Shown here: piece by piece, positions 1,878 through 46,833 of the stretch
Position numbering within the stretch: the stretch's first letter is position 1
Layout: each line of letters starts with the position of its first letter
NCBI GenBank assembly: GCA_023666275.1
Contig: JAMPCJ010000002.1
Span: 124,001-188,000 of the forward strand
Reading direction: 5' to 3'
DNA length: 64,000 nucleotides
Origin: Treponema brennaborense
GTDB lineage: Bacteria > Spirochaetota > Spirochaetia > Treponematales > Treponemataceae
Notes under the pieces: model-generated
Databases searched by the model: none
Told to the model about the DNA's origin: nothing
What the model saw: the letters and a program-made list of their open reading frames with translations, nothing else
Position numbers and translations under genes: made by a program

Positions 1878-2680
1878 AAACGGCGCGCTCCTATTTGCAC
1901 CAACAAATTTTCAAGTTTCGAAAACGCCATAGTGAACGAACGCAGAAAAAAATCAGCCATTGACGGCATCACAAACGCCAAGAGCAAAAAGCCCGCCATC
2001 ATTGTCAGCGGCAGCCCTTCCGAAAGCAAATTCATTTGCGGTGCAGCTTTTGACAGAATGCCCATTGTTATGGAAATTAAAAAAAATATACCGACAAGCG
2101 GCAGCGATATCATAAACGCATCGAAAAACAAATCAGTCAGACTTGAAAGCAAAAACCGCGTAATGTGCTCACCCGCGGCAATAAACGAAAACGCATTGAA
2201 AGTTTCAAAGCTGCGCAGCACGCCGCCCAAAAACAGTGTCTGAAAACCTTTTGTCTGCATAAAAAGCAGCATCGCCGCAAGATTTAAAAACTGTCCCATG
2301 AGCGGGTTTTCAACCTGCGCCATCGTATCGTAAGACTGCGCCGCGCTGAGTCCCATTTGAAACGTAAAAAACTGACCGGCGGAACTGAAAGCTCCGAAAA
2401 TAATCGAAATGTAAAATCCCGTTAAAACACCGATAAGCGATTCGCCGGCAAGCAGCAGCACATAATCGAGAGAAAACGCGCCCTGCGCAAACGAAAATGA
2501 TTCCCAGCCGGCACTGTAGGCAGACGGCAGCACTAAAAAAGCCATATATCCGGCAAGCGCGATTTTCGCCGCGCGCGGAACCGTTCTTGCAGAAAGCAGC
2601 GGCAATGTCATAATCAAAGCAAAACACCGAACCGCGGCAAGCAAAAACAACGGTGCCTGCGCCGTAATTTTTTCGAGCAT
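1874..2680 (-). CDS. fliR: Flagellar export protein FliR
   Basis: Integral membrane subunit of the FliP-FliQ-FliR export gate. The 268-residue product is almost entirely hydrophobic with about six membrane segments, and the sequence MGLSAAQSYDTMAQVENPLMG matches the conserved FliR region around a Q/N-P pair. It lies between fliQ (16 nt gap) and flhB (4 nt overlap), the normal spirochete order. Confidence 0.95.
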   Translation of the reverse strand: MLEKITAQAPLFLLAAVRCFALIMTLPLLSARTVPRAAKIALAGYMAFLVLPSAYSAGWESFSFAQGAFSLDYVLLLAGESLIGVLTGFYISIIFGAFSSAGQFFTFQMGLSAAQSYDTMAQVENPLMGQFLNLAAMLLFMQTKGFQTLFLGGVLRSFETFNAFSFIAAGEHITRFLLSSLTDLFFDAFMISLPLVGIFFLISITMGILSKAAPQMNLLSEGLPLTMMAGFLLLAFVMPSMADFFLRSFTMAFSKLENLLVQIGARRL

Positions 2681-2696
2681 CAGCAGCCGCCTGAAT

Positions 2697-2966
2697 TCAG
2701 CGTGCCATCTGCGGAATCAAATTGAAAAGATTCAGCGTATACTCACGGACGGACGAAAACATCCAGGCGCCGAGCAGTGCAAGAACTGCCAAAATGGCAA
2801 AAATTTTGGGAACAAATGTCAGCGTCTGCTCCTGAATAGATGTCGTTGCTTGAAAAATGGCAACAAACAAACCTACAAGAAGCGCAGTGCCAAGCACCGG
2901 AGCGGAAATCAGCAATATTTCAAGAATGCCGTTCCGCAGCAATGAAACAATTTGTCCGATACTCAC
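2697..2966 (-). CDS. fliQ: Flagellar export protein FliQ
   Basis: Small export-gate subunit of 89 residues with two hydrophobic helices (about 15-40 and 50-75). The segments PVLGTALLVGLFVAIFQATT and SIQEQTLTFVPK are the classic FliQ signature. The start is ATG 41 codons or so before the first helix-turn, and an AGGAG-like site precedes it. A 78-nt gap separates it from fliP upstream, in which I see no second gene. Confidence 0.95.
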   Translation of the reverse strand: MSIGQIVSLLRNGILEILLISAPVLGTALLVGLFVAIFQATTSIQEQTLTFVPKIFAILAVLALLGAWMFSSVREYTLNLFNLIPQMAR

Positions 2967-3044
2967 AAAAAACTCCTTTTATGAACGAATCCGCCGCAAA
3001 GCATGCAAGGCAATGTTCGTTCTCACAACAGCATCGCCGAAATA

Positions 3045-3884
3045 TCAGCGGGCAACGGAATTAAAAAGCTGCTGCGTAAGCAGTCCCCAGCCGTCAATCA
3101 ATACAAAAAGCATCAATTTAAACGGCATGGATATTTGAACAGGCGGAAGCATTATCATACCCATAGACATAAGAATGCTCGCGACAACCATATCAATAAC
3201 TATAAACGGAATGTACAAAAGTATTCCTATCTTAAATGCGACAGTAAGTTCATGCAGAATATACGCGGGAATAAGAACGTACGTCGGAACATCCGCAAGC
3301 GTATTCGGTTTTTCAAGCTTGCCGAGAGACATGAACAGCGTGATATAATCCGTATTCGAAGCCATTTGCTTGTACATGAACAGCCGCAGCGGCGCTTCTG
3401 CCTGTGTATATGCCTGCTCAAGACCGATTTCTCCGTTCGACAGCGGCTTGAAAGATTTTTCATATATATCCGTAAAAATCGGCCGCATAATAAACAGAGT
3501 AAGAAAAAAAGCAATCCCGTTCAAAACCGCCGTCGGAGGCACCTGCTGAAGCGACAAAGCCCGCTTTATAAAATCGAACACAATGGAAATTCGAAGAAAG
3601 CACGTAACAAGTATTAAAATGCTCGGCGCAAGCGAAAGAATCGTCAAAATCAGCAGCAGCTGAATGGAAAAAGCCACTTCCTGACTGCTTTCCGGGCGGC
3701 GGATCTGCACATCAATCGCAGGAAGATCGATGTCCGTAACTGTTCCGTTCATTTGCATTGTTCCCCGCGCCGAACCGGACGGAAACGATGACTGCGCGGA
3801 AAGTTTTACGGAACACGGCAGGCACAGCAGCATAAAACAAAACGCCGCTGTTTTTTTTCCGAATCGGGAAGACGTTTTCATCAT
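3045..3884 (-). CDS. fliP: Flagellar export protein FliP
   Basis: Core subunit of the export gate, 279 residues. It starts with a positively charged signal sequence and hydrophobic stretch ending near residue 31 (CSVKLSAQ), as usual for FliP, followed by conserved membrane segments: LRISIVFDFIKRAL, a helix rich in LTLFIM, the MSLGKLEKPNTLADVPTYVL region, and MSMGMIMLPPVQISMPFK. It overlaps fliO by 4 nt (ATGA), indicating coupling. Confidence 0.96.
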   Translation of the reverse strand: MMKTSSRFGKKTAAFCFMLLCLPCSVKLSAQSSFPSGSARGTMQMNGTVTDIDLPAIDVQIRRPESSQEVAFSIQLLLILTILSLAPSILILVTCFLRISIVFDFIKRALSLQQVPPTAVLNGIAFFLTLFIMRPIFTDIYEKSFKPLSNGEIGLEQAYTQAEAPLRLFMYKQMASNTDYITLFMSLGKLEKPNTLADVPTYVLIPAYILHELTVAFKIGILLYIPFIVIDMVVASILMSMGMIMLPPVQISMPFKLMLFVLIDGWGLLTQQLFNSVAR

Positions 3885-5767: not shown

Positions 5768-6794
5768 ACGATTCGTCTCCTTCTACAGACAATTCTTCAA
5801 ACTCTTCGGTTTCATTCTGCTGAATTTTGCCGATAACCTGCACCGCCATTTTTTTGCCGATAACGCCCGGCTGGCAGTAAAATTTTTTTTCATTCCCGAC
5901 GCTGAGCACGAGCGGATCCCCGACGCGGACGCCGGACAGCCTGATTGTGTCGCCGATACGCAAATTCAAAACATCCCGAATCGGAATTTGAATCGATCCG
6001 ATCTCCGCAACAACGTCCATATCAACCGTAGACAGCTTTTCTTTGAGCACGCCCAGATACTGCGTAGTCGAACTGCGCCGCACTGACGAAAACCAAAACT
6101 GGGAAGACAATTTTGAAATAATCGGTTCTATAGTTATATACGGAATACAGAAATTTATCATTCCCTCTTCTTCGCCGAGCTTCGTTTCAAGCGTAACAAG
6201 AACAACCATTTCCGTCGGCGGAACAATCTGTGCAAACTGCGGATTCGTTTCTATTTGACCGAGACGGGGCCGCAAATCAATTACCTGTGTCCAGGCTTCG
6301 CGCATATTCGCAAGAATGCGGACGATAATTCCTTCCATTACGGACTGTTCTATATCCGTAAGATCTCTTTGAACTTTCGTTCCCTGACCGGTGCCGCCGA
6401 ACAAGCGGTCGATCATCGAAAAAGTAATTGCCGGATCTATTTCGAGAATCGCATTTCCTTTCAGCGGATCCATATTTATTACGGCAAGCGTTGTCGGCGT
6501 CGGAATAGAACGGATAAATTCTTCATACGTGAGCTGATCAACCGAGGCGACATGCACATGAACCATGCTGCGCAGCTGTGCGGAAAGACTTGTTGTTGTA
6601 AGGCGCGCAAAAGTTTCATGCATGATTTGCACGGTGCGGATCTGTTCTTTTGAAAATTTATCAGGACGTTTAAAATCATAGATTTTTATCTTTCGAGTGT
6701 CATTTACCGGCTTAAAATCTTCAGATTCCGAATCACCGGAACTGATTGCCATGAGCAGCTGGTCTATTTCGTCCTGCGACAAAACTTCATTCAT
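5760..6794 (-). CDS. fliM: Flagellar motor switch protein FliM
   Basis: C-ring protein that binds CheY-P and sets rotation direction. The 344 residues begin with the CheY-binding peptide LSQDEIDQLLMAI, then the middle domain with LFGGTGQGTKVQRDLTDIEQ, and end with a SpoA domain (RIGDTIRLSGVRVGDPLVLSV). Length is standard. fliY follows with an 8-nt overlap and fliL precedes by 9 nt. Confidence 0.97.
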   Translation of the reverse strand: MNEVLSQDEIDQLLMAISSGDSESEDFKPVNDTRKIKIYDFKRPDKFSKEQIRTVQIMHETFARLTTTSLSAQLRSMVHVHVASVDQLTYEEFIRSIPTPTTLAVINMDPLKGNAILEIDPAITFSMIDRLFGGTGQGTKVQRDLTDIEQSVMEGIIVRILANMREAWTQVIDLRPRLGQIETNPQFAQIVPPTEMVVLVTLETKLGEEEGMINFCIPYITIEPIISKLSSQFWFSSVRRSSTTQYLGVLKEKLSTVDMDVVAEIGSIQIPIRDVLNLRIGDTIRLSGVRVGDPLVLSVGNEKKFYCQPGVIGKKMAVQVIGKIQQNETEEFEELSVEGDESYE

Positions 6795-37706: not shown

Positions 37707-38732
37707 CTACACCGAAACCACCGAATCCTGCGCCATAGGAAACAGCACTACTCCGTCAGCGGAAACTTCCACAATGTTTTCGATGTTCGTGTCAATCTGC
37801 CGAGCCTTGATTTTTCGCTCGCCGTCCTCTTCAAATTCAAGCAACGCCTGGAAAATGTGTCCTCCCTTTTGGAATACGGAATTCTGAAATGTCCTGATTT
37901 GCATAAAATTCTCCCTGAATAATTTTTCCCGATTTTTTGAAAAGTACATTTTCCTGCTAATTTTCGACGGCAAAAAGCGGGAAACAAGGCGCATAAAAAG
38001 ATAAAGCAAATTTTTGTTCACACCGTTAAAGCGAATGAGATTTTCAAAATAAATTTTGAACTCGAAAACTGCCTTCGACAACGAGCGGCGGCGAAAAGTG
38101 CTTTCCGTTATGCGAAAATTCACGAGAGGCTCCTGCAATGTCCGTATCTCAATTCCAAAATCAAGAAGCCTAAACCACAAGTCGATGTCCTCATTGCACT
38201 TCACTTTCTCGCTGTAACCGAATTTCTTAAGGAGAGAAGTTTTTATCATGACTGTCGGATGCGCAAGTGGAGTGCCCTTGTAAAGTTTTTTGGAATTCCT
38301 CTTCGTGCTCTTTGGATAAAACCTCGCCTTTTCAAATCTCTCCCCGGCAGGACTTATATAAAACTCATTTATCCCTCCGCCGAGAATTTGAAGACGCTCG
38401 TCTATTTCAAACGCGCACATCTGCTTTTCGAATCTCTCCGGAAGCGCGATGTCGTCGCTGTCCATCCTCGCGACAAGTTCCGTCTCGACAAACTGCAAGC
38501 CGAAATTGAGCGCGTGCGCAAGCCCTCGGTTTTCATCATAGCCCGCAACTTTTAGGGGAAGCGTTTCCTGCCATTCGGAAATAACTGCTTCAAGTTCCGG
38601 CGTGAGCGTTCCGTCCTTCACAAGAACGATGCAATCAGCGGGGCGAGTTTGTTCGGCAAGAGAACGCAAAGACTTGGCGAGGAACTGCGGGCTGTCCTTG
38701 CAGTAGACGGATTGGAGGACGGTGAAGGTCAT
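37707..38732 (-). CDS. Family 2 glycosyltransferase (AmsE-like)
   Basis: GT-A fold glycosyltransferase of 341 residues for surface polysaccharide. It starts MTFTVLQSVYCKDSPQFLAK and has the nucleotide-sugar site VARMDSDDIALPERFEKQ with the DxD motif, and later TPLAHPTVMIK. The acceptor domain holds a Lys/Arg-rich amphipathic stretch. The ATG is preceded by GGAG. A G8 version of the tract in the upstream gene would make the two overlap by ATGA; in the present G9 state they are separated by 42 nt. Confidence 0.9.
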   Translation of the reverse strand: MTFTVLQSVYCKDSPQFLAKSLRSLAEQTRPADCIVLVKDGTLTPELEAVISEWQETLPLKVAGYDENRGLAHALNFGLQFVETELVARMDSDDIALPERFEKQMCAFEIDERLQILGGGINEFYISPAGERFEKARFYPKSTKRNSKKLYKGTPLAHPTVMIKTSLLKKFGYSEKVKCNEDIDLWFRLLDFGIEIRTLQEPLVNFRITESTFRRRSLSKAVFEFKIYFENLIRFNGVNKNLLYLFMRLVSRFLPSKISRKMYFSKNREKLFRENFMQIRTFQNSVFQKGGHIFQALLEFEEDGERKIKARQIDTNIENIVEVSADGVVLFPMAQDSVVSV

Positions 38733-38774
38733 GCCGCTCTCTCCAAGCCAAATGAAGAAGGCTGCGAAATGCCG

Positions 38775-39596
38775 CTATCGTCTACCCCCCCCCTCTAAAA
38801 AAGATCGCTCTTTCTTACCGTTTTTTTTATATCTGGATTTAGGAAGAGTTAATTTTCGCACCACACCTTTGGCTGCATAAATTGCGAAAAAGAAAATGCA
38901 CTGATGGAGAGGCATTTTTAAAACATTGCGGTATATATTCCACTGCCAAGTTGCGCTGCGCATTTTATTGTTGGAAACCGAGTTCTTCACGATTCTGTAC
39001 AACGCAAGCACTTCGCCGCAGTTGCTTGCTATAAATTTGTTTTGCAGCAAATCCAGCCAATAAACGAAATCCTCATGGTCAATATTCCGAAAATACACCT
39101 TGCCGCATTTTTTCACATCATAAATCGAAGTCAGGAACCCTATATAGCAAGATTCAAGCTGATTGAAATAATTCACATATTTTGGAGCCACAACTATTTT
39201 TCCAGTGTGTCTGCCATTTTCGGAAAGCTTTTCGTAATCGCAGAACACAACCGCCACATCTTTCATCTCAAATAACGGAAGCTGCCTTTCAAGCTTTGTC
39301 GGAAACCACATATCGTCAGAATCAAGAAAGGCGATATAACGAGCGCAGGCGTTTTCAATTCCGACATTACGGGGAGCGACTGGCGAACCAGACGGAAAGT
39401 CAGTCTTGAAATATTTTATGCGCGAATCTGTTTCACAGAATGAGCGAATTATGTCCGCAGAATTATCTGTCGAACAATCGTCAACCACAAGCAGCTCCCA
39501 GTCCGTAAATGTCTGCGAAATTACAGATTCTATCGCATCGGTTATAAAACGCGCCGAGTTGTAGCATGGCATTATAATTGAAACTTCAGATTTCAT
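38775..39596 (-). CDS. Family 2 glycosyltransferase with G9 tract at its 3' end
   Basis: GT-A glycosyltransferase of 273 residues: VSIIMPCYNSARFITDAIES, LLVVDDCSTDNS, and FLDSDDMWFPTKLERQ with the DxD metal site. It overlaps the upstream gene by 4 nt (ATGA). The gene ends in a run of nine Gs read as EGGGRR then TAG. With eight Gs the frame would run on 17 codons to a TGA that overlaps the start of the next glycosyltransferase. The C-terminus is therefore probably variable. Confidence 0.9.
   Translation of the reverse strand: MKSEVSIIMPCYNSARFITDAIESVISQTFTDWELLVVDDCSTDNSADIIRSFCETDSRIKYFKTDFPSGSPVAPRNVGIENACARYIAFLDSDDMWFPTKLERQLPLFEMKDVAVVFCDYEKLSENGRHTGKIVVAPKYVNYFNQLESCYIGFLTSIYDVKKCGKVYFRNIDHEDFVYWLDLLQNKFIASNCGEVLALYRIVKNSVSNNKMRSATWQWNIYRNVLKMPLHQCIFFFAIYAAKGVVRKLTLPKSRYKKNGKKERSFLEGGGRR
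38785..38793 (-). repeat. G9 homopolymer (C9 on the plus strand), likely phase-variable
   Basis: Nine consecutive Cs on the plus strand, the only long G/C homopolymer noticed in the window, inside the last codons of a surface glycosyltransferase gene. Such tracts slip during replication and cause phase variation in treponemes and other bacteria. Confidence 0.75.
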
Positions 39597-40735
39597 AGCC
39601 TATCCTCTTCCAAAGTATCCAAAATTTTTTCAATTTGTTTTTGTACAGTTTGAGTGGAAAACCTGCCCTGCAACTTTTTTAAATTTTCGCGCTGTTCTGC
39701 ATAAAGCTTTTCATCAGGATTCTTGTCAATTCTTTCTATCGTTTCAATAAATTCACATTCATCTTCACATCTCCAGCCGATGTTTCCTGCATCTTTGAAA
39801 ATTCCGTCAAAGTAACTATTCTTTATATAGATAATTGGCTTAAGAAAGCGAATCGCATCCAAAACTGCACCGCTTGCCGTAAACTTGTAACTTGAACTGG
39901 AATATGCAAAACATGCATAGGTTGCACTAGAAACTGCCTCGTCAAAATCCTCCTGCAAAATCATTCCGCCCTTTGAAAGAATTTTTATATTAGACGGAAT
40001 ATCATCGATATGGAGTTTAAAACTTCCTATAACAAAAAACTTTGAACCTGAATTATTTTCAATTTTTTTTGCAGCATCCATAAATGTCGCTCCGCCCTTT
40101 TTCAATGAAAATTCACCTATATAAGCAAATATATTTTTATTAACATTAGGACGAATATGATTTTCACTTATGAAAACTCCAATCGGATGATTAATGGAAA
40201 AAATTCTTCCTTTAAAATATTTTTCAAAATTTTCTTTTATTGAATCGCCAAGCACAATGCGTATGAAATTTGACGGTGAATTTATTTTTGAGCAAAGAGA
40301 AATCCAAAAAGGATACGACCAAACTTTCCATTTCCCCTGCATCTCAAGCCCCTCCGACTCGCCATGCGTAATCACAATTATTTTCTTTTGTGGAATTTTC
40401 CTTGCAAACAGCGTCAGAAAAAATTGGACATTTGGAAACATACTTAAAAACACAATAAAATCGGATTGCGAATCCCTTATTATTTTTCTTGACTGAAAAT
40501 ATTCCAAAAAGAATTTCTTGATTCTTTTCGAACCAGGTGCAAGAACGCTAAGCGAATGGTGATAGATTTTATGAAAGACAGCTTCTCCTAAATTCAAACA
40601 GGAAAAATGCTCATCAGAGCAGAAAAGCTCAACAGAGTTATCGCCGGCAATTTCCGAAATAATTCTGCACATAGCCGAATTTACTGGATAATGCTGCAAA
40701 CCGGTCATGTTTGCCTCAACAAGTGTAAAAGTCAT
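39593..40735 (-). CDS. Glycosyltransferase, GT-B type (family 1/4-like)
   Basis: A 380-residue protein whose C-terminal half has GT4-like features: NIFAYIGEFSLKKGGATFMDAA (first strand of the nucleotide domain), NIKILSKGGMI, and a long acidic/aromatic helix, YACFAYSSSSYKFTASGAVL with the typical E/S-rich donor loop. The N-terminal half (MTFTLVEANMTGLQHYPVNS) is the acceptor domain. It overlaps wzy upstream and the next GT2 downstream by ATGA. AT-rich. Confidence 0.78.
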   Translation of the reverse strand: MTFTLVEANMTGLQHYPVNSAMCRIISEIAGDNSVELFCSDEHFSCLNLGEAVFHKIYHHSLSVLAPGSKRIKKFFLEYFQSRKIIRDSQSDFIVFLSMFPNVQFFLTLFARKIPQKKIIVITHGESEGLEMQGKWKVWSYPFWISLCSKINSPSNFIRIVLGDSIKENFEKYFKGRIFSINHPIGVFISENHIRPNVNKNIFAYIGEFSLKKGGATFMDAAKKIENNSGSKFFVIGSFKLHIDDIPSNIKILSKGGMILQEDFDEAVSSATYACFAYSSSSYKFTASGAVLDAIRFLKPIIYIKNSYFDGIFKDAGNIGWRCEDECEFIETIERIDKNPDEKLYAEQRENLKKLQGRFSTQTVQKQIEKILDTLEEDRL

Positions 40736-41946
40736 ACTTGCTCTCTTAATATTTTCTGATTTTTAATGCATTTAAAGCAAAGTGAAAATATCACAAAATA
40801 AAACCATGCACCGCTTATCGTATATCCAAAGGAAAGTAGAATTAGGATTGTAAATATACCTGCAACCTTTGTGTCTTTTGACTTCCAAACCAAAAAGAAA
40901 ACATAAAACCAAAGCAGGCTGCCTAAAATTCCCCCGTACAAAAAAACATTTGTCAAAGTGGATTCGCATATAGCACCTGTCAATTGAAATTCTTGGTTCA
41001 TTAACCACGGCACATAGTTGTCAAAAAAGAAACCAGTATTCGTAAGTCCATATCCAAAGAGTACATATTGCAATTCAGCTGTCGGTACATAAACAAGAGA
41101 GGCAAAATACTTTAAATGTCGCTCATTTCCTTTTCCTGTATATGGCAGTACAAGCCCCACGAAAAACAACACAAAAATCAAAATAATGCAAATTTTTAGC
41201 ATGAGAGGCTGATGCGTTTCCTTTTCACGCAAATCTAAGAAGTTAAATTTCCTGAATAAAAAGTAAAAAAACAAAGCAATAATTGAAGTTTTTGAAACTG
41301 AAACAATTATTGCAAGTATAATAATAGCATCATAAATTTTTCTTTCCTTAACAGTAACAATTCTTTCCTTATACAAAACATAGGCGAGAGAAATTGCAGT
41401 AACAGAACATCCTGGATCAGGAGAAAAACCACAGGGGCGATAAAGAGGAATTCCCGCAAGTGAAGTGAGTTGTAAGAAAGGATGTGGTACTCCTATTATA
41501 TTTGGATCACTCGTTATCGGAAAAACTTGCCAAATTAGTGGTGTTCTGGTAAGAAGATAGAATTGAGTGGCATCCATTAAAATCCAAATCGATGAAAAAA
41601 AAGCGCAAAAAAAGAAACCTTTTAAAAGCACCTTGTTATACCCTGTCTTTACTGAAGAAAGCGTTATAAGAAAACTTAGGAGAAAAGCAAATGATGTCAT
41701 AATCCCAGAATAGCCAAAGGAGAAAATAGCACCCATAACCGAGCAGAAAAAAAAGAGAACAACTAAAAATAATAGTATAACTTCCTCTATATGTAATCGC
41801 ATCCCCTTTAGCGCAACAATAAAAAACATAAGAACAACGATAGCCAAAATTCCAAACTGAGAAAGCAATAGCCCCTGTACACGAGGCCATAAAACAATAG
41901 AAACAAGCGCAGTCGAAAAAAACAGAAAATGCAACAAATATTTCAT
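40732..41946 (-). CDS. wzy: O-antigen polymerase-like membrane protein (Wzy candidate)
   Basis: A 404-residue, very hydrophobic protein with about ten to twelve membrane helices and one large extracytoplasmic loop (about 130-190) holding PCGFSPDPGCSVTAISLAY, as in O-antigen ligases/polymerases. In a locus with wzx and several glycosyltransferases the expected role is polymerising the lipid-linked repeat unit in the periplasm. Wzy proteins are identified mainly by topology and neighbourhood. AT-rich; it follows the 42066 gene by 119 nt. Confidence 0.8.
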   Translation of the reverse strand: MKYLLHFLFFSTALVSIVLWPRVQGLLLSQFGILAIVVLMFFIVALKGMRLHIEEVILLFLVVLFFFCSVMGAIFSFGYSGIMTSFAFLLSFLITLSSVKTGYNKVLLKGFFFCAFFSSIWILMDATQFYLLTRTPLIWQVFPITSDPNIIGVPHPFLQLTSLAGIPLYRPCGFSPDPGCSVTAISLAYVLYKERIVTVKERKIYDAIIILAIIVSVSKTSIIALFFYFLFRKFNFLDLREKETHQPLMLKICIILIFVLFFVGLVLPYTGKGNERHLKYFASLVYVPTAELQYVLFGYGLTNTGFFFDNYVPWLMNQEFQLTGAICESTLTNVFLYGGILGSLLWFYVFFLVWKSKDTKVAGIFTILILLSFGYTISGAWFYFVIFSLCFKCIKNQKILREQV

Positions 41947-42065: not shown

Positions 42066-42962
42066 TTACTTTATCTCCTTAAGCATTTCAAATGCTTTTT
42101 TGCAACGAAAATAATTGTGCGGAAGGGCATATACAAAAAGGAGTTTTCGTCTCATTGTATTGAATTCTTTATTTGATAAATTTTTTTTAAAATATAAAAG
42201 GCAGCTCTTCCAGTAAAACAATGCCGTCATCTTCACGAAGTCGTATTTCATTTTGTCCTCTGTCCCGGAGCCTCCAACAAAGTGTACAATTTGCGCTTCG
42301 CTTATAATCTTTCGAGAAAATTCTTTCTTCGCCATATATAATTGCAAATCGGACTCTTCAAAATACATAAAAAATCGTTCGTCAAATTTCGCCATCTCAT
42401 TATTTTTAAGAAACAAATCCGCGCCCGTAATATAATCAACTTTTTTAGGTCTTGAATTTACATTTTCATGATAAAGACCCATTCTTTTTACAATTTTTTT
42501 TATTCCAACAGAATCCAACACACGCATAAAAAGATAATGAGAGGTATTTTTATAAGTTGGAAAATCTCCACCCGAATGGATAATGTTTTCTTTTTCGTCC
42601 AATAGCCAGCTGCCCAATGCCCCAACCCTCTCCCATTCCCCATTCTTCTCGAAATACTCAAAGAAAATCTTCACCGCGTTGTTCAAAAGAATTGTGTCGC
42701 TGTTCAAATAAAATATGTATTTTCCTTTTGCGATTTTCAGTCCGCGATTGTTTGCTGTTCCGAAGCCAAGGTTTTCATTGTTTTCAATTAAGATGACCTG
42801 CGGGAATTCCGTGCGGATCATTTCAATCGATCCGTCCGAAGAGCCGTTATCGCTCACTATTACTTCAAAATCAACGCCTGCTGTTTTTTCAAAAATTGAA
42901 GCAAGACAATTGCGAGTAAGTTCTTTCGTATTGTAATTGACAATGATTATACTAACATCCAT
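42066..42962 (-). CDS. Family 2 glycosyltransferase (rhamnosyltransferase-like)
   Basis: A 298-residue GT-A enzyme with VSIIIVNYNTKELTRNCLAS, IVSDNGSSDGS, NENLGFGTANNRGLKIA and FYLNSDTILLN; the SD in LNSDT stands for the DxD motif. YITGADLFLK and FDERFFMYFEESDL match the WbbL/rhamnosyltransferase type. It begins 1 nt after the GT4 gene at 42964, so the two are co-transcribed. Confidence 0.9.
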   Translation of the reverse strand: MDVSIIIVNYNTKELTRNCLASIFEKTAGVDFEVIVSDNGSSDGSIEMIRTEFPQVILIENNENLGFGTANNRGLKIAKGKYIFYLNSDTILLNNAVKIFFEYFEKNGEWERVGALGSWLLDEKENIIHSGGDFPTYKNTSHYLFMRVLDSVGIKKIVKRMGLYHENVNSRPKKVDYITGADLFLKNNEMAKFDERFFMYFEESDLQLYMAKKEFSRKIISEAQIVHFVGGSGTEDKMKYDFVKMTALFYWKSCLLYFKKNLSNKEFNTMRRKLLFVYALPHNYFRCKKAFEMLKEIK

Positions 42963-42963
42963 A

Positions 42964-44106
42964 TCAATTTACCTTCTCCCACAACTTCTCGCAGCAATTC
43001 CCGTCCAAACATTCGGACAGATTCTTGTGAATATCCAGCTCTGAAATTTTCCGTTTTATTTCCAATGCCCTGTTATTCCATGTATTATTTTCTGCAAAGT
43101 TCTTACAATCATTTTCACAAGCTTTACTCCTCATTTCGTTTGACTCAATCTTTCTAACGCAATCTTCAAAGCTTTTGACATTGCCGTTTTTATACAAATA
43201 CACATAATCTGAAAATTTCAGTGTCTCCCCATATTCAACCGAAATTATAGGCTTGCAAGAGAAAATATATTCATAAAGTTTTACAGGATTTACAGATTCT
43301 ATAAGTTTATTGACTATGAATGGCATAATAAGAATATCTGCCGCATTCATTATTGAAAAGATCTTATCTCTGGAAACGGGACCATGAAATATAAAATTTT
43401 CTTCGCGATTTGTAGAAATATTGTCAACCGGACCAAATAAATGGAATTCATATTTTTCTTTGTCAAGCGTTTCCAATAAATTAAAATCAAACCATTCTGA
43501 TATCGTTCCTATATAAACAAACTTTATCCTATTGCTTTCGGTTAATTTTATATTTTCCAATATATTAGTTTTCGGAAGCTCTATTGCATTATTATTTACA
43601 GAGAATTTCCCACTAATATTTCCAAGGTTGTATCGTTTTAAAAGCGCATTTTTTAAATACTCTGAAGTAAAAAAAACATACTTTGAATGCTGTATCACTT
43701 GCTTTTCAAGAACAAAAAGCTTTTTGTTCTCTTTCAGATTGGATGAGAATTCCAACACATCATCCATACAATCATAAATTATAGGGACATTTATTTTCGT
43801 GCTAAAAAAAACGGGATGTGTTAAATAAACATAATCATAGTCTTTCTTAGACAGAAGATTTTCAAGAAAACATTCGTAGATAAAAGTGTTTATCTTTCTT
43901 ATTACAGAAAATCTTGACATCGGCAGTCTAGGAATTTCTTTTATTAAAAAATTCCCTTTTGCATTGCTTGTTAACAATTTCTTATCAAAATTTTTCTGAT
44001 AATAAACTTCTGCTTCAATTCCATTTTCCGCTAATTTCTCGGCAATAAAATGAGGTCTTTGTTTTATCCAGTTCCAATCAACATGCATAAGATAAAGAAT
44101 TCTCAT
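42964..44106 (-). CDS. Glycosyltransferase family 4-like (TuaH/Spp type)
   Basis: A 380-residue GT-B protein starting MRILYLMHVDWNWIKQRPHF, typical of the 'WxxxxQRP' group that includes teichuronic acid and exopolysaccharide glycosyltransferases. It contains VPIIYDCMDDVLEF, VYIGTISEWFDFNLLE and PVKLYEYIFSCKPIISVEYG with the conserved E of the donor site. It overlaps wecB by ATGA. AT-rich. Confidence 0.87.
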   Translation of the reverse strand: MRILYLMHVDWNWIKQRPHFIAEKLAENGIEAEVYYQKNFDKKLLTSNAKGNFLIKEIPRLPMSRFSVIRKINTFIYECFLENLLSKKDYDYVYLTHPVFFSTKINVPIIYDCMDDVLEFSSNLKENKKLFVLEKQVIQHSKYVFFTSEYLKNALLKRYNLGNISGKFSVNNNAIELPKTNILENIKLTESNRIKFVYIGTISEWFDFNLLETLDKEKYEFHLFGPVDNISTNREENFIFHGPVSRDKIFSIMNAADILIMPFIVNKLIESVNPVKLYEYIFSCKPIISVEYGETLKFSDYVYLYKNGNVKSFEDCVRKIESNEMRSKACENDCKNFAENNTWNNRALEIKRKISELDIHKNLSECLDGNCCEKLWEKVN

Positions 44107-45224
44107 AATAAACCGTTCTCCAAAATCTTCACGATTCGTTCGCTTGTCTTTCCGTCCCCATACGGATTCACGGCATTGGACATCGATTTATATAGCTCCC
44201 CGCCGCACAAAAGCTCCTCTGCCGCAGATACTATTTTCTCGCAATCCGTGCCCACAAGTTTTGCAGTCCCTGCCTCTACTCCTTCCTGCCGTTCCGTGAC
44301 ATCGCGCATCACCAAAACAGGCTTCCCCAGTGCGGGCGCTTCTTCCTGTATTCCGCCAGAATCGGTAAGAACGAAAAAGCATTTTTCCATAAGCCAAATA
44401 AGATACGGATAGTCCAAAGGTTCGATAAGATGAATATTCACTTTTCCATGAAGATGCCGCATAACCGGTTCCCGCACATTCGGATTCAAATGCATGGGAT
44501 AGATAAATTCTGTGTCATTGTGTTTGTCTGCCAAAACAGAAATCGCCTTGCAGATATTTTCAAATCCGCTTCCGAAGTTTTCCCTGCGGTGTCCGGTAAT
44601 CAAAACAATCTTTTTTGAAAAATCCATATACGAGAAAAAATCGGAATATTCCTTGTCGCCTTTCTTCTTTATCAAAGCAAGCCCCAAATGCAAAGCGTCT
44701 ATGACCGTATTGCCGACCATGTATATATTTGCAGGAATTCCCTCGCGCCGGAGATTTTCGGCAGCCCTTTCTGTCGGGCAAAAATGAAAGTCCGCAATGT
44801 GTCCGGCAAGGATTCGATTTCCTTCCTCCGGAAATGGGGAATATTTGTCGCCGCTTCTCAATCCTGCCTCAAGATGTGCAATGGGAAGTTTGCAAAAGTA
44901 TGACGCGAGCGCCCCTGCAAGCACTGTAGATGTATCTCCCTGTACAAAAATCAAATCGGGTTTTTCGCTTTCAAGTATTGGTTTTAATCCCAGCAGACAG
45001 CCGCTTACGATATCGAAGAGTGTTTGGTTTGGCTTCATCAAGTTCAGGTCATAGTCGCCTTTTATGCCGAAAAATGAATTTATCTGATCCAGCATCTGAC
45101 GGTGCTGTCCCGTAAGGCAGACAGCCACTTTAAATCGGAGCGGATGCTTTTGGAACTCCTTAATAAGAGGCGCCATTTTTATTGCTTCCGGACGTGTTCC
45201 ATAAATGAACAAGATTTTTTTCAT
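44103..45224 (-). CDS. wecB: UDP-N-acetylglucosamine 2-epimerase
   Basis: Makes UDP-ManNAc from UDP-GlcNAc as a sugar donor for the polysaccharide. The 373 residues match WecB/MnaA: FIYGTRPEAIKMAPLI, VCLTGQHRQMLDQ, FVQGDTSTVLAGALAS, HLEAGLRSGDKYSPFPEEGNR, and LTDSGGIQEEAPALGKPVL. Length is normal. A 13-codon ORF and wzx lie upstream on the same strand. Confidence 0.96.
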   Translation of the reverse strand: MKKILFIYGTRPEAIKMAPLIKEFQKHPLRFKVAVCLTGQHRQMLDQINSFFGIKGDYDLNLMKPNQTLFDIVSGCLLGLKPILESEKPDLIFVQGDTSTVLAGALASYFCKLPIAHLEAGLRSGDKYSPFPEEGNRILAGHIADFHFCPTERAAENLRREGIPANIYMVGNTVIDALHLGLALIKKKGDKEYSDFFSYMDFSKKIVLITGHRRENFGSGFENICKAISVLADKHNDTEFIYPMHLNPNVREPVMRHLHGKVNIHLIEPLDYPYLIWLMEKCFFVLTDSGGIQEEAPALGKPVLVMRDVTERQEGVEAGTAKLVGTDCEKIVSAAEELLCGGELYKSMSNAVNPYGDGKTSERIVKILENGLL

Positions 45225-45228
45225 AATG

Positions 45229-45270
45229 TTATTTCCTTAATTTTTTTTCCGCAATTTCTTTTTCAGTCAT
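45229..45270 (-). CDS. Possible 13-codon ORF between wzx and wecB
   Basis: ATG at 45268-45270 overlaps the wzx stop as ATGA and is preceded by AGGAGG; it encodes MTEKEIAEKKLRK and stops 4 nt before wecB. It may be only a coupling device that keeps ribosomes moving from wzx to wecB, or chance. Confidence 0.3.
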   Translation of the reverse strand: MTEKEIAEKKLRK

Positions 45271-46742
45271 TTTTTCCTCCTGTATACCGCAAAGAACACG
45301 CAGATGCAGGGAAGCGCGAGCAGTGCGCCGCTTATGACGGCACAGACGAGCCAATCGAAATACGTGTGTACGAAAAACGGATTGCATCTCATGGCAGACA
45401 CGATTGCCGCATACAGCGCAAAAAAGACGGCAATTTTGCCGAGAGATATGAACACCAGTGCGCCCAGTATTTTGCGTGCGGAATAAATAATGATGTCAAA
45501 CGTCCGATATGCATACGAACAGATGCCGCCGAGCAGTACGCCGATAAACCCGAACTTCAGCGTGAACGCCACGGAAAAGACAACGTTAATCGCGCTTTCC
45601 GCAAGACTTCGCCACTGCGTCTTTTGGAAATGCCCTGCGGCGTTAATCATATTGCCCGCAGGGTTCCGCAGGTTATTCAGCACGCCTACGGCAACGAAAA
45701 GTTTTGCCATGACGGGCTGTATGTAATCGGCGTCCGTCATGTTTTTTGTGTACAGCTGCATGAACGGCATAATCAGTATGTACGCCATTGCATAAAACCA
45801 GCCCTCCGCGGCAAAGAACAAAGTTTCAAAGCGCGAGAACAATTTCCGCGTTGCATCGGGGCTGTCCTTTACCAGCGACTCCCCGAATACCGCCTGCATG
45901 CCGTTTGAAAACGCTCCGAGCAGATTGGAAATTGCACTGAAGACCATGGCGTATACCGCGTAAACGCTCGCATCGGCAAGGCTGCACAAGACGGCTATGA
46001 TGACAAGCGGCGAATTGAACACGACAAGTCCGCCGATTTGGTGCACGAGCGCGTTCCGGCTTTGGGAAATCGCGGCGAAGTCAGGCTCGGATTTGAAGTT
46101 TAAGTCGGCGTACTTTCTGCGGCAGTACAGCACGATAAACGCATAGCGCGAAAGATACACAAGGGACGAACAGAGCTTGACGGCGAGAATCGAAAATCCG
46201 AGCCGAATCAAAACGGCGGCGACGGCGGTGTTCACGGCAACGGCGAATGTCTGCACAAACGAAATGACATAGAGCTTTTTGTCGGCGGTCAGAAGAACGC
46301 GATATTTTCCGATCAGAAAAAATTCGGCAGCTCCGGTGATTCCCAGCACGAGCACCATAAGCCCCGCCTGAATCCTGTCGACTTCGGTGCCGACAGCCAG
46401 CGGATAAACAAAACTCAGCGCAAAAACCAAAAGAACAAAAACCGCACCCGACTTGCCGTAAAAGCGCGCCGCCGCGGACAAAATCGCATTGCGTCCCTCG
46501 GCACAGCGTTCCGCAAGCGGTTTGTACAGCGCCGCAACGGATGCCGCCCCGACGCCCGCTTCAACGATATTCAGATACGCGATAAACTGCGTGATGCTTG
46601 AAACCATGCCGTTCACGGACGAGCCGAATGCGGAAATCACAAGCGGCGGCAGTATGAATCCGCACAGCGCGGTAACAACTTGCAGCGTCAGGTTTGAGAA
46701 AATGATAAGAGCCGCCTCTTTTTTTCGTGATGATATATGCAT
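45267..46742 (-). CDS. wzx: Polysaccharide flippase (Wzx/MOP family)
   Basis: Multi-pass membrane protein of 491 residues with about twelve hydrophobic helices, moving lipid-linked repeat units across the inner membrane. The N-terminus IIFSNLTLQVVTALCGFILP and SSVNGMVSSITQFIAYLNIVE is the Wzx/MurJ-like pattern. The start is ATG at 46740-46742, one codon after an in-frame TTG. Its GC content is higher than that of the genes to its left, suggesting a mosaic locus. Confidence 0.9.
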   Translation of the reverse strand: MHISSRKKEAALIIFSNLTLQVVTALCGFILPPLVISAFGSSVNGMVSSITQFIAYLNIVEAGVGAASVAALYKPLAERCAEGRNAILSAAARFYGKSGAVFVLLVFALSFVYPLAVGTEVDRIQAGLMVLVLGITGAAEFFLIGKYRVLLTADKKLYVISFVQTFAVAVNTAVAAVLIRLGFSILAVKLCSSLVYLSRYAFIVLYCRRKYADLNFKSEPDFAAISQSRNALVHQIGGLVVFNSPLVIIAVLCSLADASVYAVYAMVFSAISNLLGAFSNGMQAVFGESLVKDSPDATRKLFSRFETLFFAAEGWFYAMAYILIMPFMQLYTKNMTDADYIQPVMAKLFVAVGVLNNLRNPAGNMINAAGHFQKTQWRSLAESAINVVFSVAFTLKFGFIGVLLGGICSYAYRTFDIIIYSARKILGALVFISLGKIAVFFALYAAIVSAMRCNPFFVHTYFDWLVCAVISGALLALPCICVFFAVYRRKK

Positions 46743-46833
46743 CAACTATCCTTTACTGCAAAATAAACATACGGACTGAAAGCCGGACTGCAATTGTTGC
46801 CAACTCCCGTACCGCACCGCGGTTTCACTGCTT

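Follow-up and report, generated by a model that had tools for sequence, protein, structure and literature searches.

The window, by which we mean the whole stretch of 64,000 nucleotides analysed, belongs to a Treponemataceae-like genome of 2.35 Mb; Treponema genomes are among the nearest public matches of the tract-bearing gene described below. The minus strand of the window carries a glycan operon that opens with a flippase-like protein, continues with a UDP-GlcNAc 2-epimerase, with glycosyltransferases and with a Wzy-like protein, and leads to two GT2 glycosyltransferase genes. A run of nine G residues is found at the junction of these last two genes (Table 1). The minus strand there reads TTTTTTAGA-G9-TAGACGATAGCGG. 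The ATGA overlaps that an earlier note on this DNA had listed at neighbouring junctions are real (40732/40735, 39593/39596 and 44103/44106).

Table 1. Coordinates of the operon genes and of the features at the tract junction (window positions).
Feature	Position	Strand	Remark
Glycosyltransferase (GT2), downstream gene	37707..38732	-	proposed regulated gene
Predicted hairpin over Shine-Dalgarno and start codon region	38709..38749	-	UUGGAG with CUCCAA
Frame extension with G8 or G11	38729..38784	-	up to TGA 38729-38731, in ATGA overlap with the following start codon
Shine-Dalgarno GGAGAG of the downstream gene	38739..38744	-	predicted paired
TAG stop in use with G9	38775..38777	-	from translation by tract length
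Upstream glycosyltransferase, GT2 (PF00535)	38775..39596	-	273 aa in the G9 state
Lineage-specific tail with the tract	38778..38849	-	aa 250-273; predicted disordered, missing from homologues
G9 homopolymer	38785..38793	-	proposed switch; no other G/C run in the window exceeds 5
Glycosyltransferase (weak PF00534)	39593..40735	-	ATGA overlap with the tract gene
Hydrophobic protein	40732..41946	-	without Pfam match, called Wzy in the earlier note; overlaps the following gene by ATGA
Glycosyltransferase, GT2	42066..42962	-	
Glycosyltransferase (weak PF00534)	42964..44106	-	
UDP-GlcNAc 2-epimerase (WecB, PF02350)	44103..45224	-	ATGA overlap with next gene
Hydrophobic membrane protein	45267..46745	-	flippase-like by appearance (no Pfam match)

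We translated the junction at each tract length from G6 to G12. With the assembled G9 the upstream protein has 273 residues, ends in EGGGRR and stops 42 nt upstream of the ATG at 38732. With G8 (288 residues) or G11 (289 residues) the C-terminus becomes SQPSSFGLERAA (...GLERAA), and the terminating TGA overlaps that ATG. G10 and G7 stop immediately 3' of the tract, at EGGG, 49 nt before the next ATG. The near-3' tract therefore offers three alternative C-termini according to its length, and the stop/start overlap, our criterion for coupling as in PMC3711429, holds for G8 and G11 only and is absent from the assembled state. These translations bear out what the earlier note had read here: the tract with its EGGGRR end, TAG stop and 42-nt gap, the ATGA overlap in the G8 frame and the immediate stop with G10. 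Its argument for coupling stands in part. Only one frame class couples, as the argument needs, but the overlap taken alone carries little weight, since among 45 other ordinary junctions of 15-90 nt, 7 also have an ATGA in an alternative frame, a chance rate of about 15%. The coding score of the G8 extension, 0.97 over 16 codons, is neutral (real genes, mean 4.38, sd 3.69).

Is the tract of a kind that slips? Runs of G or C in the window number 605 of length 3, 89 of length 4, 7 of length 5, none of lengths 6-8 and one of length 9. A G9 arises in 6 of 100 dinucleotide shuffles of the window, and runs of intermediate length are rarer in the real window than in its shuffles. In the whole genome there are 70 runs of at least 8, chiefly of 8 and 9 with a mode at 9, so that run lengths are bimodal; in 403 kb around tracts we counted 42, 6 and 1 runs of length 5, 6 and 7, and extrapolation from the short-run counts would give about one run of at least 8 genome-wide. 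The abundance of long runs, together with the shortage of intermediate ones, places the G9 in a non-random, genome-wide set. Comparable tracts occur in most of 145 related genomes, at densities that differ widely, and in many of the tract genes of this genome the coding frame shifts across the tract. Because of this excess, and because many of the tracts lie where slippage matters, the G9 of the window is very probably a contingency tract, although that its own length varies is something we infer from a single genome of the genus. If instead nine were a miscount by the sequencing or assembly of a stable G8, the two genes would always be coupled. Homopolymers are error-prone, and contigs of this assembly do end at G tracts (C8 at both ends, and C4), which lends this explanation some force; set against 70 such tracts with a modal length of 9, and their like in most relatives, it seems to us very improbable.

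Some of these tracts are of interest in their own right. Promoter-like tracts number 11 in this genome against 2.2 expected, with a spacer of the form TTGACA-CTA-C9-GTGC-TATAAA. Near-identical C9 runs occupy the spacer (TTGACA-15/16 nt-TATAAA) at L134 3037, L135 5859 and 7869, L137 3155, L146 3091 and L161 3004, lie 36-70 nt upstream of genes that include those for an outer-membrane beta-barrel and a CotH-like protein, and probably form a family of phase-variable promoters. Near-identical signal-peptide flanks enclose G8, G9 or G10 in lipoprotein/BspA-like leucine-rich-repeat paralogues (L139, L141, L143, L158, L173 and L176), an indirect sign of length change in tracts of this kind, and it is in this BspA-like signal-peptide repeat that contigs C8 and C4 terminate. 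In L148, a gene for a Cas6-family CRISPR endoribonuclease (2107-3060, minus strand) has a G9 at 3032-3040, about 20 nt past its predicted start and apparently in frame; it is a possible phase-variable CRISPR component. An IspD-type cytidylyltransferase gene carries a G8 in its glycine-rich N-terminal motif (L163 3043-3050), and the remainder of the gene is in another frame; one step in a glycan pathway may be switched here. At L153 3044-3052 a G9 lies within an apparent single chemoreceptor gene, which has its MCP signalling domain downstream and is frame-shifted at present. The longest tract observed, 18 nt of C, stands ahead of a 2-kb gene in a related genome (G119 L216 2046).

The promoter family raises the question whether the G9 of the window is likewise the spacer of an intragenic promoter that drives the downstream glycosyltransferase. 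The best pair of hexamers on either side of the tract matches at no more than 6 of 12 positions and a promoter scan there returned nothing, so that this is extremely unlikely; with no -35 and -10 flanking the tract, promoter-spacer phase variation was rejected here.

The consequences of slippage for the upstream enzyme depend on where in the protein the tract falls. At 33 loci, homologues of this enzyme (32-51% identity) stop near query residues 249-262, the majority at 249-252, and in the AlphaFold model residues 1-249 fold well while 250-273 have a pLDDT below 50. The tract thus sits behind a complete enzyme, and past position 249 the tail would have 24, 22 or 39 residues, depending on tract length. 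As the homologues all end ahead of it, neither version of the tail is likely to be ancestral, and the earlier note's suggestion that G8 is the ancestral state finds no support, in these proteins or in the downstream orthologues, which lack the tract. Since the tail is predicted to be disordered and is missing from the homologues, slippage should spare the upstream enzyme, and a tract outside the catalytic domain should therefore act on something else. An alternative is that the tail itself is what is switched, altering the activity, location or partners of the upstream enzyme and leaving the downstream gene unaffected. Altered protein ends or fusions are the accepted explanation of the 3'-end poly-G tracts of Helicobacter canadensis and Neisseria gonorrhoeae (PMC2823697, PMC5320596). 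The likeness is close: there too the poly-G lies in the last codons and three C-termini are possible, and in H. canadensis some of the tracts belong to a surface-glycan-like cluster that includes an rfbB epimerase. The part of the tail that the frames share is, moreover, basic. Here, in contrast to those cases, the tail looks dispensable, being lineage-specific, disordered by prediction and past the folded domain, and it is the next start that is predicted to be masked, which points to the downstream gene as the target. We regard C-terminal switching as unlikely at this locus.

The ribosome binding site of the downstream gene is predicted to be masked. Most of its Shine-Dalgarno sequence is predicted to pair with codons 5-7 of the same gene, with a probability of about 0.6-1.0 in all fold windows tried. 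Opening the region from -18 to +12 would cost 16.9 kcal/mol, the 97th percentile when starts are ranked by this measure among about 308 genes. Relatives of the downstream glycosyltransferase (37-61% identity) have a junction without the tract and an opening cost of 1.4-10.3 kcal/mol. The local sequence is GC-rich, however, and the cost is equalled by 26 of 200 local shuffles (13%) and by 38 of 300 synonymous recodings; a 92-nt fold at this start has z = -0.74. Because shuffles and recodings so often equal it, the masking is not demonstrably selected. It is through such masking that coupling would matter for the downstream gene.

When the starts are ranked by masking, the first two places are taken by two other tract junctions of the same genome, both on contig C18, within glycan cluster L178. 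The first, at position 3067, has a C9 that closes the gene of a TPP-dependent enzyme 43 nt ahead of the GTG of a second TPP enzyme; with C10 or C7 the frame would reach a TGA overlapping this GTG. The Shine-Dalgarno sequence and the GTG lie within a long predicted hairpin (27.5 kcal/mol, 0 of 200 shuffles). A relative of this second TPP enzyme in genome G282, 57% identical, has neither tract nor hairpin, and its start costs 3.4 kcal/mol. The other, at position 5956, has its C8 inside an NDP-sugar epimerase gene; as assembled, the frame continues as far as an ATGA shared with the following epimerase, and the start of the latter is predicted to be buried (21.8 kcal/mol, 0 of 200 shuffles). In each case one frame stops at +4 on the next start. 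The assembled states would be low in the window and at 3067, and coupled at 5956. At the fourth tract junction of the genome, L133, masking of the start is median. The proposal in the earlier note that the downstream gene is the target gains from this recurrence, from the position of the tract outside the catalytic domain and from the predicted masking.

The L178 junctions also bear on whether the tract might act through RNA and not through the frame, for instance if its length governed recognition by an antisense or small RNA. In Helicobacter pylori, the length of a G-repeat in the tlpB-hp0102 operon gradually tunes a glycosyltransferase gene through RepG, a small RNA that acts on the 5' leader, and the authors judged direct translational coupling unlikely (PMC8295292). 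The tract described here is likewise a G-repeat tied to a glycosyltransferase gene, and in a long fold it is able to pair with bases at the start of the downstream gene. No candidate RNA is known, a search against Rfam matched no element, and RepG differs in being a small RNA that addresses a 5' leader. On the mRNA, the tracts at L178 consist of C, and a common mechanism based on a G target therefore fits poorly. This explanation is accordingly given a very small share of probability.

Fixed junction criteria were then applied to genome stretches from related species, of which those of G108 and G119 had been viewed before the criteria were set and those of G148 and G128 had not. Four mid-gene tracts (L153, L162, L212 and L228) were left out because another frame joins the halves of the gene. 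The start-masking percentiles were.97,.50, 1.00 and.99 for the junction tracts of this genome,.12 and.95 for G108,.76,.55,.97 and.43 for G148, and.24 and.02 for G128; the G119 stretches held no junction tract of this definition. Two of the 8 junction tracts in the four other genomes thus precede a start among the 5% most masked, where 0.4 would be expected, and several precede open starts. Taken alone, this excess is only suggestive, and the two masked starts are not independent, because both carry one cassette. A +4 stop in some frame is found at 4 of the 12 junction tracts in the five genomes, which is about the chance level.

The cassette (G148 L275 1459-1526, G108 L205 1972-2046) comprises a G9 tract, a hairpin, a start and the first eight codons. 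The two copies are alike from just past the tract through the hairpin and the eight codons (81% over 70 bases); the upstream genes differ (GT2 and LicD), and the downstream Caps_synth proteins are only 28% identical. So alike a segment between such dissimilar neighbours suggests that tract and hairpin move as a unit together with the start that follows them. Further copies were sought in 274 genomes and only these two were convincing. A different junction in G148, between LicD and a pyruvyltransferase (L269), has almost exactly the frame design of the window, with a G9 stop 60 nt short of the next start and another frame that ends in HGRAA at an ATGA (+4); its start is not unusually masked.

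The open starts raise the alternative that the tract is a bystander, slipping harmlessly between two genes that are well translated in all frames. The G128 junctions and some of those in G108 and G148 have such starts, the Shine-Dalgarno sequence in the window is a good one, and the hairpin there does not exceed what local composition provides. This explanation sits badly with the non-random placement of tracts in the genome and with the repetition of the junction design, with extreme predicted hairpins, at L178. We consider it improbable, though slightly less so than C-terminal switching.

As a whole, the results are best read as a switchable translational coupling of the downstream glycosyltransferase, to which we assign a probability of roughly 0.55. 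A slippage-prone G9 would be placed in the dispensable tail behind a whole GT2 enzyme, and its length would set the frame in which ribosomes leave the upstream gene. With G8 or G11 they would traverse the masked binding site, melt the hairpin, if it forms in vivo, and stop at the TGA overlapping the ATG, where they could restart, giving high expression of the downstream gene. With G9 or G10 they would stop 42-49 nt upstream, ahead of the hairpin, and the downstream gene would be left with weak independent initiation. The earlier note's description of G9 as a 'low' state is reasonable: the gene retains its own Shine-Dalgarno sequence, so that 'low' is a better term than 'off', and some restart may still be feasible across the 42-nt gap. 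Depending on the strength of coupling, the outcome would be high versus low rather than on versus off expression, and the surface sugars would vary at random.

Three outcomes of repeat slippage are recognised: transcriptional, translational (on the gene's own product) and C-terminal. In translational phase variation of glycosyltransferases, of the lgt, lic or wlaN type, slippage knocks out the tract gene itself; a slipping repeat within a glycan operon is common to those systems and the present case, whereas here the tract gene stays whole. Translational coupling, through overlapping stop and start codons or the melting of a hairpin at the ribosome binding site, is normally fixed. The junction in the window shares with it the ATGA overlap in one frame and a predicted masked binding site, but here coupling would be conditional on a slippery tract. 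A possible precedent is lex2A/lex2B of Haemophilus influenzae, where a downstream glycosyltransferase is affected by a repeat located in an ORF ahead of it; that repeat is a tetranucleotide in a small leader ORF, whereas the present tract is a homopolymer in the tail of a complete enzyme. The literature searched on phase variation and translational coupling, with subscription journals mostly outside the search, held no description of this mode, and no catalogue of such tracts for a treponeme relative this distant from T. pallidum was found in it.

Tracts of this kind are present in large number in a bacterium that is related to the treponemes but distant from T. pallidum. More tentatively, and at somewhat less than even odds, the Treponemataceae may possess a distinct and partly transferable class of switch, in which a G/C tract at the 3' end of a glycan gene is combined with a hairpin over the next ribosome binding site, so that slippage toggles coupling and leaves the tract gene intact; some 3'-end tracts elsewhere that are classed as C-terminal may be the same device. 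If reporters confirm the mechanism, phase variation by a simple repeat would here act on the downstream gene, a little-noticed way to vary surface sugars.
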